Shown here piece by piece: positions 57,856-63,620 of a stretch of DNA of 64,000 nucleotides. The translations under genes and the position numbers were made by a program. The stretch covers positions 248,001 to 312,000 of the forward strand of contig SJSR01000001.1 in NCBI GenBank assembly GCA_004331795.1. Direction: 5' to 3'. Source of the DNA: Erythrobacteraceae bacterium CFH 75059. Its GTDB lineage: Bacteria; Pseudomonadota; Alphaproteobacteria; Sphingomonadales; Sphingomonadaceae. Below the pieces are notes generated by a model. That model was not told the origin of the DNA and did not search any database. It saw only the letters and a program-made list of their open reading frames with translations. Every line of letters begins with the position of its first letter. Position 1 is the stretch's first letter.

Positions 57856-57959
57856 CCGCCTTTTGCCGATCGCTGCTCGAAGCGCAAGCCGGTAAATGCT
57901 GCGCGACAGGAACATGCGGGTGCCGGTGCACCGGTGGCCGGCAGAATGTCGAAGGAAAA

Positions 57960-58005
57960 TGGAGCGGGCGAAGGGATTCGAACCCTCGACCCCAACCTTG
58001 GCAAG
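57960..58005 (-). other. tRNA-Gly(GCC) 3' fragment: attachment-site scar (att)
   Basis: Read on the minus strand, this 46-nt block is the 3' part of tRNA-Gly: anticodon loop TTGCCAA with anticodon GCC, stem GGTTG, variable GGGTC, T-arm GAGGG-TTCGAAT-CCCTT, acceptor strand CGCCCGC, T and encoded CCA (57962-57960). The 5' half that should follow to the right is absent; homology stops at the anticodon loop, where tyrosine integrases normally cross over. The intact tRNA should lie at the far end of the element, outside the window. Confidence 0.85.
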
Positions 58006-58131
58006 AAGAACGACGGGCTTTTCTCCAGTACGCTCCACATCGCTATACCACGCTAAACGCTCGATATATGTAGCATTCCAGTTTCCCTTAGTGCGATCAA
58101 GATGCCTGAAATGGACTTGCATCTGCTGACA

Positions 58132-58173
58132 ATTTGGTGACAAAAGGCTCGGCAGAGAATTTTGTCACCAAAT
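58132..58173. repeat. Perfect 14-bp inverted repeat before the integrase gene
   Basis: ATTTGGTGACAAAA (58132-58145) and TTTTGTCACCAAAT (58160-58173) are exact inverted copies with a 14-nt spacer. The right arm ends 11 bp before the integrase ATG. Likely roles are integrase or excisionase arm-binding sites, or an operator controlling the integrase. Confidence 0.8.
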
Positions 58174-58184
58174 GAGGGGTGGGG

Positions 58185-59450
58185 ATGACTCCGGTCAAGC
58201 TAAACAAGCGCTGCGTCGATAGCCTGCTTCCGCCCTCCAAGGGGCAAGCGGTTCTCTGGGATACCGAGGTACGCGGCTATGGCGTACGTGTCCTTCCGTC
58301 GGGCACAAAGACCTTCATCCTCCAGTATCGCAACCCAGAGGGAATTCAGCGCCGCATCAATATTGGCCGATACGGCGTCCTTACCGTCGATCAGGCGCGC
58401 GATCAGGCCAAGCTGTTCCTGGCCTCCGTGATCAAGGGAGAAGATCCGGCTGATGAAACACGTCGTGCGCGCAAAGGCATGACGGTCGCGGAGATGTGCG
58501 AATGGTATCTGGCCGAAGCGCGGGCCGGGAACATCTTGGGACGACTGAACCGACCGATAAAGGCATCGTCCCTTGATATGGACGAGAGTCGTATTAAGAC
58601 GCACATAATCCCACTCCTCGGAAAGCGCGTGGTGGCGCAGCTGAGCGTCGCCGATGTCGAGCAGATGCAGTCCGATGTTAAGAACGGGAAAACCGCTAAA
58701 GCTCGGAGCGGTGGTCGTGGCGGACAGGCGACCGGAGGAGCTGGTGTAGCCTCGCGATGCCTGGGTACGCTTCAAGCGATCATAGGGCATGCCAAGCACA
58801 AGGGGTTGCTGGCGGCCCATCCAACCCAAGGTGCGAAAAAGCTGGCCAGCGCAAAGCGGACCCGACGGCTGAGCGTCGCCGAGATTGAGACGCTCGGTAA
58901 GGCAATCGCGTTTGCCGAGCGAAACCACGAAAATCCTGTGGCGCTGGCCGTTTTGAAGACGCTTCTGCTAACGGGTTATCGCCGGGAAGAAGCCCAAGCC
59001 ATGCAGAGGTCCTGGGTTAACGCCGCGGGAGGGTTCATCAGTTTCCCGGACACCAAAGGCGGTGCGCAAGTCCGTGCCATTGGCCCTGCGGCCCTGAAGA
59101 TCGTCCTGAGCCAGCCAGAAATGCTCGGCAATCCTTATGTCTTCGCATCAGAAATCGGGGCCGGGCCCTATACTGCCGTGAGTTCCTGTCTTGACCGTGT
59201 TTGCAAGCTCGCAGGAATTTCGGGCGTCACGCCACATACCCTTCGGCATACGTTCGGAAGCATCGCAGGCGAACTGGGTTTTTCGGAACTGACAATCCGC
59301 GCTATGCTCGGTCACGCTTCGCAAAACGTGACGCAAGACTATATCCATATCGACGAAGCGCTGAAGCTGGCTGTTCAAAGGACATCGGATGAAATTGCGC
59401 GTCTACTCGACTTGGGGGCAAAACGTCTTGCAATGATGTCCTATCCATAA
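58185..59450 (+). CDS. Tyrosine integrase (DUF4102 N-terminal, P4-type)
   Basis: Site-specific recombinase of 421 residues. An N-terminal arm-binding DUF4102 domain (~5-90: VLWDTEVRGYGVRVLPSGTKTFILQYR) and a core-binding domain precede the catalytic domain (~230-400). Catalytic residues are Arg in LTGYRREEA, His-x2-Arg in HTLRHTFGS, His in LGHASQ and Tyr in VTQDYIHID. ATG 58185 is chosen because GAGGGG lies 5 bases upstream; an in-frame GTG at 58179 would add two residues. It sits directly inside the tRNA-Gly att scar and probably mediates integration there. Confidence 0.92.
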   Translation: MTPVKLNKRCVDSLLPPSKGQAVLWDTEVRGYGVRVLPSGTKTFILQYRNPEGIQRRINIGRYGVLTVDQARDQAKLFLASVIKGEDPADETRRARKGMTVAEMCEWYLAEARAGNILGRLNRPIKASSLDMDESRIKTHIIPLLGKRVVAQLSVADVEQMQSDVKNGKTAKARSGGRGGQATGGAGVASRCLGTLQAIIGHAKHKGLLAAHPTQGAKKLASAKRTRRLSVAEIETLGKAIAFAERNHENPVALAVLKTLLLTGYRREEAQAMQRSWVNAAGGFISFPDTKGGAQVRAIGPAALKIVLSQPEMLGNPYVFASEIGAGPYTAVSSCLDRVCKLAGISGVTPHTLRHTFGSIAGELGFSELTIRAMLGHASQNVTQDYIHIDEALKLAVQRTSDEIARLLDLGAKRLAMMSYP

Positions 59451-59558
59451 CCAGCACCTTGTACCGAGCCTTGTTGGGACTGCCACCGGCTAGCTGCATC
59501 GAGACTCCCGGCGCCCAGTCCATACAAAGACCGGCGCCGTGTCGATGTCGCCAGTTAC

Positions 59559-59564
59559 TATAAA
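59559..59564 (+). promoter_or_regulatory. Candidate -10 element for the Abi_2 gene
   Basis: TATAAA (within TATAAAATC) lies about 35 bp before the Abi_2 start, in the 147-bp gap after the integrase. No clear -35 hexamer is visible at the expected position. Confidence 0.35.
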
Positions 59565-59597
59565 ATCTGCTTCGGGTGTGGCACTCAACACTCATGG

Positions 59598-60566
59598 TTG
59601 ACGTATCGGGGGCATTGCGTGTCGGGGACAGACTGGAAAAGCTTCGCTGATCAGCTCCAGATTCTGAAGGATCGCGGCTTGACGGTGGGGGATGATACCC
59701 GAGCGATCAGTTACCTCGAGAAGATCGGCTATTATTGCCTCAGTGGCTATTGGTATCCGTTTCGCTCGCCAAAAGCACAGCCCGTCGGCCTGGTGTTCCG
59801 GGAAGACCATTTCCTTCCTGACTCAACATTCGAGGACGCTGTTGCGCTCTACGCCTTCGATCGCAAGCTGCGGCTCCTGGCGCTCGATGCGCTGGAACGG
59901 ATCGAACGAGCCATCCGGGTCGACGTAGCCCACCTGCTGGGCAGGCTCGACTGCTTCGCGCAGTACGACCCCGCCCTACTGCACGGCAATTTTGCTCGCA
60001 GGGCAATTCCGAAGGGCTACAACGCGGGAAAGACCGAGCACCAGCTTTGGCTCGATCACCAGGACAAGCTGATTCACCGTAGCCGGAAGCAGCATTTCGT
60101 TGCCCACAACATGAACAAGCACGGGCGCTTGCCGATCTGGGTGGCGATCGAGATCTGGGATTTCGGTGCCCTTTCGCGGCTCTTTGCCGGCATGAACGTA
60201 AAGGACCAGGATGTCATTGCGGCCAGCTACGGTCTGGGGACGGGACGCGAACTGGAGAAATGGTTGCGAAGTCTGAGCTATCTTCGCAACGTCGCAGCGC
60301 ACCATAGTCGCATGTGGAATGTGAACGTGTTGGAGCTGTCGCCGGTGCCACAGTTCGACCAGAACTGGCAGTCGCTCGCCAATGCGCGCCCATTCATGTA
60401 CTTTTGCATCATGCGGTTTCTGCTGGCGCGGATCAGTCCGAATTCCAGCTGGGGTGAGCGGTTCAAAGCTTTGATGGCGGAGTTCCCCGAACCTGCAAAC
60501 AAGGCCGTGACGGCCGCCGATTTCGGGTTGGTTGCAGGCTGGGAGGGATGGCCGCTTTGGGCCTAG
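59598..60566 (+). CDS. Abi_2 (AbiD/AbiF-type) abortive infection HEPN protein
   Basis: A 322-residue protein from a TTG at 59598; a GTG at 59619 is an equally possible start and neither has a strong ribosome site. The Abi_2 N-terminus is visible (LQILKDRGLTVGDDTRAISYLEKIGYYCLSGYWYPF). The helical body contains LLALDALERIERAIRVDVAH, and the C-terminal part has LSYLRNVAAHHSRMWN, the R-x4-6-H motif of HEPN ribonucleases. Such proteins stop phage growth, probably by cleaving RNA. It lies two genes inside the element, between the integrase and a DUF2513 gene, and is followed by a promoter-hairpin unit on the other strand. Confidence 0.85.
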   Translation: MTYRGHCVSGTDWKSFADQLQILKDRGLTVGDDTRAISYLEKIGYYCLSGYWYPFRSPKAQPVGLVFREDHFLPDSTFEDAVALYAFDRKLRLLALDALERIERAIRVDVAHLLGRLDCFAQYDPALLHGNFARRAIPKGYNAGKTEHQLWLDHQDKLIHRSRKQHFVAHNMNKHGRLPIWVAIEIWDFGALSRLFAGMNVKDQDVIAASYGLGTGRELEKWLRSLSYLRNVAAHHSRMWNVNVLELSPVPQFDQNWQSLANARPFMYFCIMRFLLARISPNSSWGERFKALMAEFPEPANKAVTAADFGLVAGWEGWPLWA

Positions 60567-60576
60567 ACCATCCGCA

Positions 60577-60628
60577 CAAAAGAAAACCGGCACGTACACA
60601 TCGCTGTGCAGAGGTGCCGGTCATATTA
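60577..60628 (-). ncRNA. Candidate small RNA next to the Abi_2 gene
   Basis: A strong promoter on the minus strand lies immediately before the hairpin terminator, so a transcript of about 50 nt starting near 60626-60628 would consist almost entirely of the hairpin. There is no convincing ORF. It converges on the 3' end of the Abi_2 gene. The existence of the RNA is inferred from promoter and terminator only. Confidence 0.35.
60580..60621 (-). terminator. Intrinsic terminator hairpin, minus strand
   Basis: Arms ACCGGCAC (60586-60593) and GTGCCGGT (60614-60621) pair exactly; the loop can form a second short CACA/TGTG stem. Read on the minus strand it is followed by TTTTCTTTT (60585-60577). It could end the transcript of the small RNA candidate or of the DUF2513 gene upstream. 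Confidence 0.6.
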
Positions 60629-60634
60629 CGTCCA

Positions 60635-60662
60635 TATATACCCATACGAACGCGTTTGTCAA
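60635..60662 (-). promoter_or_regulatory. Sigma-70 type promoter, minus strand
   Basis: On the minus strand, perfect -35 TTGACA (60662-60657) is followed by a 16-nt spacer and -10 TATATA (60640-60635); a 17-nt spacing to ATATAT is also possible. It points at the hairpin 14 bp downstream. Confidence 0.6.
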
Positions 60663-60808
60663 TGAGAGACATTCGCGGCGCTGCCCCAGACACTAGCTGA
60701 ATCGGAGCGATTCTCGCCGTGGCGCGCTCAGATCAAGGCCTGCGGCACGGCGTCAGCCTGAGGCCAAGCTTCGCCCAATGCGCTCTTGCGACGGCTATAT
60801 ATCGGACC

Positions 60809-61216
60809 CTACAAATCGAGCTCAACCCCTGTGTGTTGCTCGATCTTCTTCTTCACCAAGCCCTTGGCGAGCGCCTTCAGGAGATCGAGACTGAAGCCGC
60901 CAGCCTTCTTTGCGCCGGCCTTTGTCTCGCGCCAGATGGCGGGATCACGGACGGTGTCGAGGAAGTCATGCCCGGCCCATGTGATCTGGCCAATCTGCCA
61001 AGCCGCGCCGGATAGCTTCGCTTTTATGGTAATGAGACCAGCATTGTCGAGCAGGTCCAGGTGATACTCCAATAGTTCTGCCTGCTCGCGCGGCAGCTTG
61101 CCTTCGCTGCTCTCGCCCAAAACCTCAGCGATCTCCGGGGTCAAAAGATCAAACGAGCGTCGTCCGTCTTCGATCTGCAAGAGCAGATCCCGGATGAGGT
61201 CCATGTCGCGCTTCAT
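60809..61216 (-). CDS. DUF2513 domain protein
   Basis: A 135-residue protein beginning MKRDMDLIRDLLLQIEDG, the typical N-terminus of DUF2513, which is found mainly in phages and integrative elements. Middle part EYHLDLLDNAGLITIKAK and WQIGQITWAGHDFLDTVRDPAIW suggest a small winged-helix-like fold. The Lys-rich C-terminus (KALAKGLVKKKIEQH) is amphipathic. The ATG at 61216 is chosen because the family starts there. Function is unknown. It lies between the Abi_2 gene and the winged-helix gene. Confidence 0.78.
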   Translation of the reverse strand: MKRDMDLIRDLLLQIEDGRRSFDLLTPEIAEVLGESSEGKLPREQAELLEYHLDLLDNAGLITIKAKLSGAAWQIGQITWAGHDFLDTVRDPAIWRETKAGAKKAGGFSLDLLKALAKGLVKKKIEQHTGVELDL

Positions 61217-61307
61217 GCCTTGGACCGTACCGCAAACACAGCGGAAGGACAGCGAACTGTTCGACCGGCAATGACTGATCGCCATAATTGCCCGCACTGC
61301 TTGCGGG

Positions 61308-61928
61308 TCAGCGGTGAGCGAGCTGATAGCGGCCATTCTTGCGGGCACCGACAAAGCGCAAAAGACCGCAGCCGCACAGACCCGCAAGATCGCGCCGCGC
61401 GGACTTGATGCTCACCTGCCAGTGTGCCGCGATCTCGCGGGCTTTGACCGAGTGCCCCTTGCCGACTCGGTCGAGCACCCAGCGTTGGCGCTCATTGAGA
61501 CCCAAACTTATTGGGTCATTTCCAGGGTCATTTCCAAGGTCATTTATAGGGTCAGAATTCGGTCGATGCTTGCCCAACGGCCGCTCATTCCCGTTTTCAT
61601 GTGCCCACGATGTTCCCCCGCGCAACCATTCGGATGACTCGGCGAGTCTGGATTGCTGGCTTTCGATAATGCCGAGAACGAACGCTCGAATAACGGGAGA
61701 CGTCGCAACCAAGCGCAGAAAGAATAGCGTGTCGGGGCCATGTTGCCCGGCCATCCAATGTTTTGCGGACCGCTCGCTGGCATGGGTCAGCCGCATCAGT
61801 TGCTTCACGGCACGATGCGTGTCCCCATGTTCCTTGCGCAGCAAATTGGCGATGGTCTCGGCAAAGGCTTGGCGACTGGCGAGCGCACCCTCCCAAGCTG
61901 GCAACTTCCTGCCCTTTTTCGGCAACAT
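61308..61928 (-). CDS. Putative winged-helix transcriptional regulator
   Basis: A 206-residue protein starting MLPKKGRKLPAWEG. The N-terminal half (RQAFAETIANLLRKEHGDTHRAVKQLMRLTHASERSAKHWM) is a helical, possibly DNA-binding module; the C-terminal ~65 residues (LNERQRWVLDRVGKGHSVKAREIAAHWQVSIKSARRDLAGL) form a winged helix. Between them is a repeated NDP linker. The ATG at 61928 follows GGACCGGAAG. It is divergent from the serine recombinase across ~120 bp and may repress it. The family is not characterised as far as I know. Confidence 0.65.
   Translation of the reverse strand: MLPKKGRKLPAWEGALASRQAFAETIANLLRKEHGDTHRAVKQLMRLTHASERSAKHWMAGQHGPDTLFFLRLVATSPVIRAFVLGIIESQQSRLAESSEWLRGGTSWAHENGNERPLGKHRPNSDPINDLGNDPGNDPISLGLNERQRWVLDRVGKGHSVKAREIAAHWQVSIKSARRDLAGLCGCGLLRFVGARKNGRYQLAHR
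61514..61561. repeat. 12-bp tandem repeat inside the regulator gene
   Basis: Four units of GGGTCATTTCCA-type, the first two identical and the last two diverged. On the minus strand they encode repeats of the NDPG/NDPI/NDLG kind in the linker between the two domains. Copy number may vary in frame. Confidence 0.75.
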
Positions 61929-62048
61929 CTTCCGGTCCTTTCCCACATATACTGTTGAGAGTGCGGGAATGCCGGAGCGGTCCGTAGTTCGCGCTGCAGC
62001 GGTTGGCCGCCCTGGCCACTGCAGTTCGGGTTTCGAAAGGGGCGAGCA

Positions 62049-63620
62049 TTGCCGGGATGGGAGAAAGACGAGGCACCGGGCGATGCAGAACAGAGGCCTA
62101 CCGTGCGCGCGGCCGAATATGTTCGGATGTCCACGGACCATCAGAAATACTCGACCGAAAATCAGGCAGATGCGATCCGCCACTACGCCGCATCTCGAGG
62201 CATAGAGATTGTCAGGACCTATGCTGACGACGGCAAAAGCGGCCTATCGATCGACGGTCGCGCTTCTCTGCAGCGGCTGATTGCCGACGTCGAATCCGGC
62301 GCCGCCGATTTCCAGATGATCCTGGTTTATGATGTCAGCCGCTGGGGCCGTTTCCAGGACGCCGATGAGAGCGCCTACTACGAGTACATCTGCCGCCGCT
62401 CCGGAATTCAGATCGCCTATTGCGCCGAACAGTTCGAGAATGACGGGTCGCCGATGAGCACCATGTTCAAGGGCTTCAAGCGCGCCATGGCTGGTGAATA
62501 CAGCCGGGAACTTTCGGTCAAGGTTTTCGCTGGCCAGGGGCGGCTCATCGAAAAGGGGTATCGACAAGGCGGTCCCGCTGGCTTCGGCCTGCGTCGGACA
62601 TTGATCGACGAGCATGGTAACGTCGAAGCGGTCCTCTGCCGCGGCGAACAAAAGAGTCTCCAGACCGATCGGGTCATCCTGACACCGGGCCCGCCCGAAG
62701 AGATTGACGTGGTTCGCGAAGTATATCGCAGCTTCGTGCACGAAGGTCGCTCAGAGCGCGAAATCGCCGAGGAGCTTAATGCTCGAGGTGTTCTATCCGA
62801 CCTCGAACGCCCCTGGACACGTGGCACCGTCCATCAGCTGCTGATCAACGAGAAATACGTCGGCGACAATGTCTGGAATCGGCGGTCGTTCAAACTGAAG
62901 AAGAAGCGGGTCCGCAACGCTCCTGACATGTGGATCCGCTCGGAGGGGGCATTCGAGGGGATCGTTGAACGGGACCTGTTCGAGGCAGCTCATTCGATCA
63001 TCACGGCACGCTCGTTCCGCCTGACGGACGAGGAAATGCTCCAAGCGCTGCGAGGCCTCTACGCCAGCAAGGGTCTGCTGTCGGGCATTATTATCGACGA
63101 ATGCGAGGGATTGCCGTCAAGCAGCGCCTACAGCTCGCGGTTCGGCAGCCTGCTTCGCGCATACAGTCTGGTCGGTTTTTCGCCGGAGCGGGACTATCGC
63201 TATATCGCCATCAACAAGGTCCTGCGCCGTCTCCATCCGGATATCGTTCGCGAAATCTTGGCGGGCCTCCATGCCCAGGGGAGCGATGCGTTTCAGGATC
63301 TTGCCAGTGACAGCATCCGGGTGAACGGCGAGTTCAGCCTTGCAATCGTTCTGGTGCGCTGCACGCCAACGCCGACCGGGATGCTGCGTTGGAAGATTCG
63401 CTTCGACACGAGCCAGCTTGCCGACATCACGGTGGTTGTCCGCATGGACATGCACAATCGCGCGCCGTTCGATTACTACCTGTTCCCCAGGATCGACGTC
63501 ACGAGCGAACGACTGCGTCTCGCCGAAGACAACGATCTGCACCTCGATGCCTATCGCTTCGACACGCTTGATTTCTTCTATGACATTGCGGCGCCCGTCG
63601 CCATTCCGGAGGCTGCGTAA
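62049..63620 (+). CDS. Large serine recombinase (resolvase family)
   Basis: A 523-residue protein from TTG 62049, preceded by AAAGGGG. The resolvase catalytic domain (~20-165) contains the nucleophile serine in AAEYVRMSTDHQKYSTENQ and the arginine-rich LVYDVSRWGRFQDADES. A recombinase domain (~190-300) follows (PAGFGLRRTLIDEHG, AEELNARGVLSDLERPWTRGTVHQLL). The C-terminal third has no zinc-ribbon CxxC pairs, but carries GLPSSSAYSSRFGSLLRAYSLVGF. It shares one base with the next gene (TAATG). Its target site cannot be seen; the integrase near the att scar is the more likely integrator. Confidence 0.88.
   Translation: MPGWEKDEAPGDAEQRPTVRAAEYVRMSTDHQKYSTENQADAIRHYAASRGIEIVRTYADDGKSGLSIDGRASLQRLIADVESGAADFQMILVYDVSRWGRFQDADESAYYEYICRRSGIQIAYCAEQFENDGSPMSTMFKGFKRAMAGEYSRELSVKVFAGQGRLIEKGYRQGGPAGFGLRRTLIDEHGNVEAVLCRGEQKSLQTDRVILTPGPPEEIDVVREVYRSFVHEGRSEREIAEELNARGVLSDLERPWTRGTVHQLLINEKYVGDNVWNRRSFKLKKKRVRNAPDMWIRSEGAFEGIVERDLFEAAHSIITARSFRLTDEEMLQALRGLYASKGLLSGIIIDECEGLPSSSAYSSRFGSLLRAYSLVGFSPERDYRYIAINKVLRRLHPDIVREILAGLHAQGSDAFQDLASDSIRVNGEFSLAIVLVRCTPTPTGMLRWKIRFDTSQLADITVVVRMDMHNRAPFDYYLFPRIDVTSERLRLAEDNDLHLDAYRFDTLDFFYDIAAPVAIPEAA

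Follow-up and report, generated by a model that had tools for sequence, protein, structure and literature searches.

Within the window (the whole stretch of 64,000 nucleotides that was analysed), a gene encoding an Abi_2-type toxin on the plus strand is met at its 3' end by a compact minus-strand unit made of promoter-like boxes, a hairpin and a U-rich tract. The features of the locus are:

59598..60566, plus strand: Abi_2/AbiD/AbiF HEPN ribonuclease toxin gene, 322 aa, start TTG (PF07751, PADLOC and PDB matches)
60662-60657, minus strand: -35 box TTGACA of the RNA gene (from the sequence; TTGACA or TTGAC/TTGCN in most related units)
60640-60635, minus strand: -10 box TATATA, spacer 16 nt, hairpin beginning 12 nt further on (from the sequence)
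60575..60628, minus strand: predicted antitoxin RNA of ~50-54 nt, its putative start ~7 nt past the -10 box and its putative end within the U-tract
60622-60614, minus strand: 5' arm of the outer stem, GACCGGCAC (fold and covariation)
60610..60613, minus strand: conserved side CUCU of the internal loop (alignment, RF03085 consensus)
60596..60609, minus strand: inner hairpin GCAC-AGCGAU-GUGU (fold; the inner helix covaries)
60594..60595, minus strand: 3' side AC of the internal loop (alignment)
60593-60585, minus strand: 3' arm of the outer stem, GTGCCGGTT (fold and covariation)
60577..60584, minus strand: U-rich, terminator-like tail TTCTTTTG (from the sequence; kept in relatives)

The protein encoded at 59598-60566 carries the Abi_2 domain (PF07751, 172 bits, E 2.2e-50, cut-off 25.6), confirming the sequence-only reading that had placed the RNA unit at the 3' end of a HEPN Abi_2 gene, and it also matches AbiD in PADLOC (E 2e-55); translation could also begin at a GTG in the same frame (59619). 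PDB 8vz6, given in the review PMC12737573 as PbAbiF of an AbiF-RNA complex, aligns over residues 15-321 (E 2e-32), and this match of ~300 residues to a solved structure settles the family to which the protein is assigned from its sequence. The predicted HEPN catalytic R-x4-H site is present (R230-N231-x3-H235): R230 and H235 align with the catalytic R210 and H215 of PbAbiF, and R230, N231 and H235 are invariant in 36 of 36 relatives. The search of viral contigs found no close relative, and phage records held distant relatives only (the closest at 38%).

Read on the minus strand from 60662 to 60575, the RNA unit is TTGACA-AACGCGTTCGTATGGG-TATATA-TGGACGTAATAT-GACCGGCAC-CTCT-GCACAGCGATGTGT-AC-GTGCCGGTT-TTCTTTTGTG. 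The perfect TTGACA, the TATATA and the 16-bp spacing between them are as previously read directly from the sequence, and the T-rich tail noted after the hairpin is the U-rich tract listed above. The reported 8-bp arms are present as eight pairs, to which a closing G-U adds a ninth in the outer stem; the claimed distance of 14 bp to the hairpin had to be corrected to 12 nt between the -10 box and the stem, or 13 nt to the 8-bp arm. The 20-nt loop of the outer stem encloses a second helix (UGCACA/UGUGUA), CUCU together with the last C of the stem forms the CCUCU also found in the Rfam abiF RNA, and the end of the hairpin lies 18 nt from the Abi_2 stop codon. The minus-strand RNA (65 nt) folds at -26.5 kcal/mol (z = -3.55, with 0 of 200 shuffles as good), and the plus strand of the same site gives z = -0.51. 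A search of both strands of the window for a promoter followed by a stem of at least 8 bp and a T-tract matched this site only, and the same search gave 0 matches in 60 windows simulated by a first-order Markov model. The unit was absent from the list of a simple promoter/terminator consensus scan of the window, because TATATA does not have the T required at position 6 and the 20-nt loop is above the limit of 8.

Abi_2 relatives were drawn from whole genomes, GTDB contigs and plasmids, and every locus was oriented by tblastn before the placement of its unit was scored. A promoter-hairpin-U-tract unit adjoins nearly all the relatives with intact flanks (judged partly by eye), and the conserved units span Alpha- and Gammaproteobacteria; the flanks of a few distant relatives (e.g. 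L034, L048) held no recognisable unit. The distance from the -10-like box to the stem is 11-12 nt in almost all of the 34 window-related units, and the leader (~5 nt, usually AAYAY or near it) and the tail are conserved between loci, not variable.

Covariation was scored on 16 window-type units in an ungapped, anchored alignment of 9 outer pairs, CUCU, 4 inner pairs and AC, which rests on the stem definition because the apical loops were removed. Paired cells amounted to 93.8% versus a shuffled mean of 76.8%, changes on both sides were found in 9 of the 13 pairs (three of the four in the inner helix), and the covariation score was 0.555 versus 0.228; slid structures paired at 27-40%, and a separate whole-half shuffle gave 0/2000. 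The expectation that the hairpin would be conserved beside related Abi_2 genes is borne out by these compensatory base changes, the near-fixed promoter distance and the shared terminator tail, and the proposal of a ~50-nt structured RNA partnering the Abi_2 protein gains support from conservation across the two proteobacterial classes.

A covariance model (R1) was built from 13 sequences, including the window RNA, whose site is its single match in the window (60577-60627, minus strand, 69.8 bits, a training sequence) and its only match in the window's own genome. Across 399 genomes of the window's order, R1 scored more than 30 bits at six sites, and an Abi_2 gene adjoins five of these; beyond the training set, R1 also matches the units beside L050-L053, L085, L087, L089, L058, L032 and L097/L008. 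Matches of 27-30 bits (L098-L100), which resemble ordinary terminators, were left out.

G311 has a 48-bit R1 match (L096, 1501-1552, minus strand) that is an orphan antitoxin-like RNA, with no Abi_2 gene found in the ~2.7 kb of sequence that includes it. The toxin of G296 (L007, L029; G296:C1:72495-73315) is 94-95% identical to that of the window, is missing residues 112-179 and has a changed frame, and the RNA unit is intact 18 nt from the stop of this broken gene. In G831 (L050, L105) and in G870 (L053, L104) there are two AbiF genes with RNAs of different subtypes: a canonical-type RNA lies upstream of one gene, and a window-clade RNA lies downstream of the other and antisense to it. These four cases fit a toxin-specific antitoxin that can be lost last, and none of them is proof of it.

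The point, made in the original reading, that conserved non-coding RNAs occur near abiF-type genes holds among the relatives themselves: L014, L017 and L019 have units recognised by Rfam RF03085, all upstream on the toxin's strand, and the toxins of these loci, from the same order, are 30-34% identical to that of the window. For the window RNA, canonical RF03085 identity was rejected, since the model gave no match in the window at gathering (37 bits) and none in 60400-60900 at E up to 10; it also gave no match at 18 loci of the window's clade and 20 further loci. Both RNAs are linked to Abi_2 genes, and in both a GC-rich outer stem leads into an internal loop whose 5' side carries CCUCU. They differ at the apex, where RF03085 has 11 unpaired nucleotides closed by a helix of 3 bp and the window RNA has an extended covarying hairpin, and in the 3' side of the internal loop, which is AUGCxCA in the former and UACG in the latter. 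Inside the stem, RF03085 has CCUCU-CAACG-AUGC, L012 and L021-L026 have CCUCU-[short hairpin]-AUGC and the window type has CCUCU-[hairpin]-UACG, and by their sequences the three subtypes look like one series. The clade includes two other subtypes: the RNAs of L050-L053 lack CUCU, and in those of L054-L056 and L076-L079 (L082 is similar) conserved GGCCCCUNUCGG...GCUGCUNAGGGG flanks an inner hairpin that varies.

The Rfam model appears too narrow, because at gathering it misses hairpins that look like canonical abiF RNAs (L060, L064, L038, L073; CGCCUCU in a GC stem, upstream of Abi_2). The window subtype is absent from Rfam 15, and searches relying on RF03085 therefore overlook such RNAs; it may already be inside the broader RNA models of Zilberzwige-Tal et al. 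2025 (AbiF5_iter3, diverse_rna_xinsi), which are named in PMC12804078.

The RNA lies upstream and in sense in 52 relatives and downstream and antisense in 19, the latter units being mostly 0-30 nt from the toxin stop codon. A single branch (SH-aLRT 97) separates these 19 from all the others in a tree of 71 proteins, with one placement change versus a shuffled mean of 17; a carefully built tree (38 proteins, outgroup included) gave support of 99/97, and a single change suffices in 98% of the bootstrap trees. With the 19 loci on one branch, the pattern is most simply explained by one move of the RNA gene. At four loci of the clade with a downstream, antisense RNA, a restriction-modification gene immediately precedes or overlaps the toxin gene: in L005, L006 and L077 the toxin gene comes right after a type I specificity-subunit gene (Methylase_S), and in L052 after a type ISP gene (type ISP C-terminal domain). 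These neighbours suggest that the move of the RNA gene allowed expression of the toxin as part of a host operon. A more elaborate scenario, offered tentatively as possible rather than probable, is that in this AbiF clade (Alpha- and Gammaproteobacteria, several members abutting restriction-modification genes) a single event took the RNA gene out of the toxin's 5' leader and into a convergent 3' unit of its own, that control switched from cis-attenuation plus protein binding to protein binding in trans with an antisense or collision layer, and that RNA subtypes arose, each with its own toxin specificity.

From what is observed (a covarying structure, promoter-like boxes at a kept spacing, the linkage, the pattern in the clade and the active site of the toxin), it is very likely that the locus is an AbiF-type toxin-antitoxin module composed of a plus-strand HEPN ribonuclease toxin and a stand-alone, minus-strand, single-hairpin antitoxin RNA of ~50 nt. 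Of the two functions originally proposed, antitoxin or guide, the first is favoured by the comparative conservation and by the related RNAs, which have been demonstrated by experiment to be AbiF antitoxins (PMC12373285). RCd22 of C. difficile, an RNA with abiF motifs, binds AbiF and neutralises the protein both in cis and in trans; it reduces abiF expression in cis alone, and what it requires is the pairing of its stem, not the stem sequence (PMC12373285). AbiFCd-RCd22 (phi027 prophage) and the window pair are alike in the Abi_2 HEPN toxin with R-x4-H and in the adjoining promoter-driven structured RNA with a terminator end; neutralisation by RNA binding is demonstrated in the former (PMC12373285) and predicted in the latter. 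RCd22 (~100-132 nt) comprises two abiF motifs and a terminator distinct from them; it stands upstream of the toxin gene and attenuates that gene as well. The window RNA, in contrast, is a single ~50-nt hairpin placed downstream in antisense orientation. PbAbiF of the PbAbiF-AbiFr complex (PDB 8VZ6), compared with the window by protein alone, is homologous over its full length and has the same catalytic residues; the accounts of this complex in PMC12373285 and the review PMC12737573 give one small RNA per monomer.

Counted against the antitoxin reading are the missing RF03085 match, the inner hairpin unlike the proven abiF motif, the one hairpin versus two in RCd22, and the G311 RNA without a nearby Abi_2 gene. 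ToxIN and other type III systems are similar in that a toxic ribonuclease is held by a small RNA and is proposed to fire once antitoxin synthesis stops. The fold of the ToxIN toxin is unrelated to AbiF. ToxI is a tandem-repeat RNA upstream of its toxin and co-transcribed with it (PMC12373285), whereas the window has a single hairpin in a convergent unit. The type III layout (upstream antitoxin, co-transcribed, with an attenuating terminator between) is absent, the window RNA being downstream and antisense with its own promoter, and tandem antitoxin repeats are absent too, given the one R1 match in the window. RNA-neutralised AbiF is known; what is probably new here is the RNA subtype together with the downstream-antisense gene placement.

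In the proposed toxin-antitoxin module, the strong promoter, ~5-nt leader, hairpin and U-tract would yield a short, presumably abundant RNA, present in excess. As the putative start lies directly before the hairpin and the terminator tract closes it, one hairpin would have to do both jobs, serving as protein ligand and terminator at once. The RNA would occupy the AbiF dimer and block the RNase site; if the RNA fell, as might happen once a phage shuts down transcription in its host, the toxin would be freed and growth would stop. We infer transcription, binding, neutralisation and this trigger for the window locus. In relatives with an upstream sense RNA, the terminator of the RNA could also attenuate the toxin gene; downstream, antisense and convergent, the window RNA cannot attenuate abi_2 through its terminator, so control should rest on binding in trans, and convergent transcription or antisense interference might form a second layer in the window's clade.

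The same layout raises the alternative that the RNA is mainly a cis-antisense regulator, as in type I systems, with the read-through abi_2 mRNA carrying its complement and a duplex or polymerase collision limiting the toxin. The plus strand has no run of at least four T within 242 nt past the abi_2 stop, and transcription of the toxin gene may therefore continue across the RNA gene; the units of the window's clade are convergent and near the stop codon, a layout permitting overlap with such a read-through mRNA. However, the related RNA is upstream and in sense in the other 52 relatives, which argues that antisense pairing is not the general function; covariation and the conserved internal loop indicate a folded ligand, and RCd22 acts by protein binding, leaving abiF expression unaltered in trans (PMC12373285). 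Antisense regulation as the main function is accordingly improbable, and it could be a second layer.

Less probable still, and rejected for the conserved linkage, promoter spacing and loop, is that the hairpin is a mere intrinsic terminator for the leftward genes (60809-61387, 61308-62183) or for abi_2, next to a chance promoter match. The stem and U-tract are terminator-like and the leftward genes do sit upstream of the hairpin on its strand, but abi_2 and the U-tract are on different strands, the promoter lies 12 nt before the stem at a spacing kept in relatives with different neighbours, the conserved inner helix and CCUCU are needless for a terminator, and most relatives have the hairpin upstream of the toxin rather than at the end of another operon. 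Hardly credible, even though an origin of Cas13 from AbiF is assumed (PMC12373285, PMC12737573), is a Cas13-like guide directing the Abi_2 RNase to target RNAs: the predicted transcript (~5-nt leader, one hairpin, U-tail) has no room for a spacer, its leader and tail are conserved, R1 matches once in window and genome, and an array of repeats with variable spacers, or any spacer-sized segment, is absent.

AbiF-type modules are regarded as ancestors of CRISPR-Cas13 (PMC12373285; the derivation of Cas13 from AbiF and the PbAbiF-AbiFr complex are also treated in the review PMC12737573). In the C. difficile example the RNA stands before the toxin gene and combines protein binding with transcriptional attenuation (PMC12373285). 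The window's clade appears to be naturally without the attenuation arm, which makes it well suited to asking if RNA binding is enough by itself, and specificity can be tested in the genomes where two AbiF genes occur with different RNA subtypes.

Two further observations concern the surroundings of these genes. Just upstream of Abi_2 on a Rhizobium plasmid (L078, 1242-1365, minus strand) lies the alphaproteobacterial ar14 sRNA (RF02344, 102.9 bits), probably a chance neighbour. In the window, a 5.6-kb block (57946-63562) is 97% identical to Erythrobacter colymbi (L001; strain JCM 18338 has such a block), with parts common to a Sphingomonadaceae MAG (L002) and Sphingomonas hankookensis (L003); as it begins just before an integrase gene, the block looks like a mobile island.
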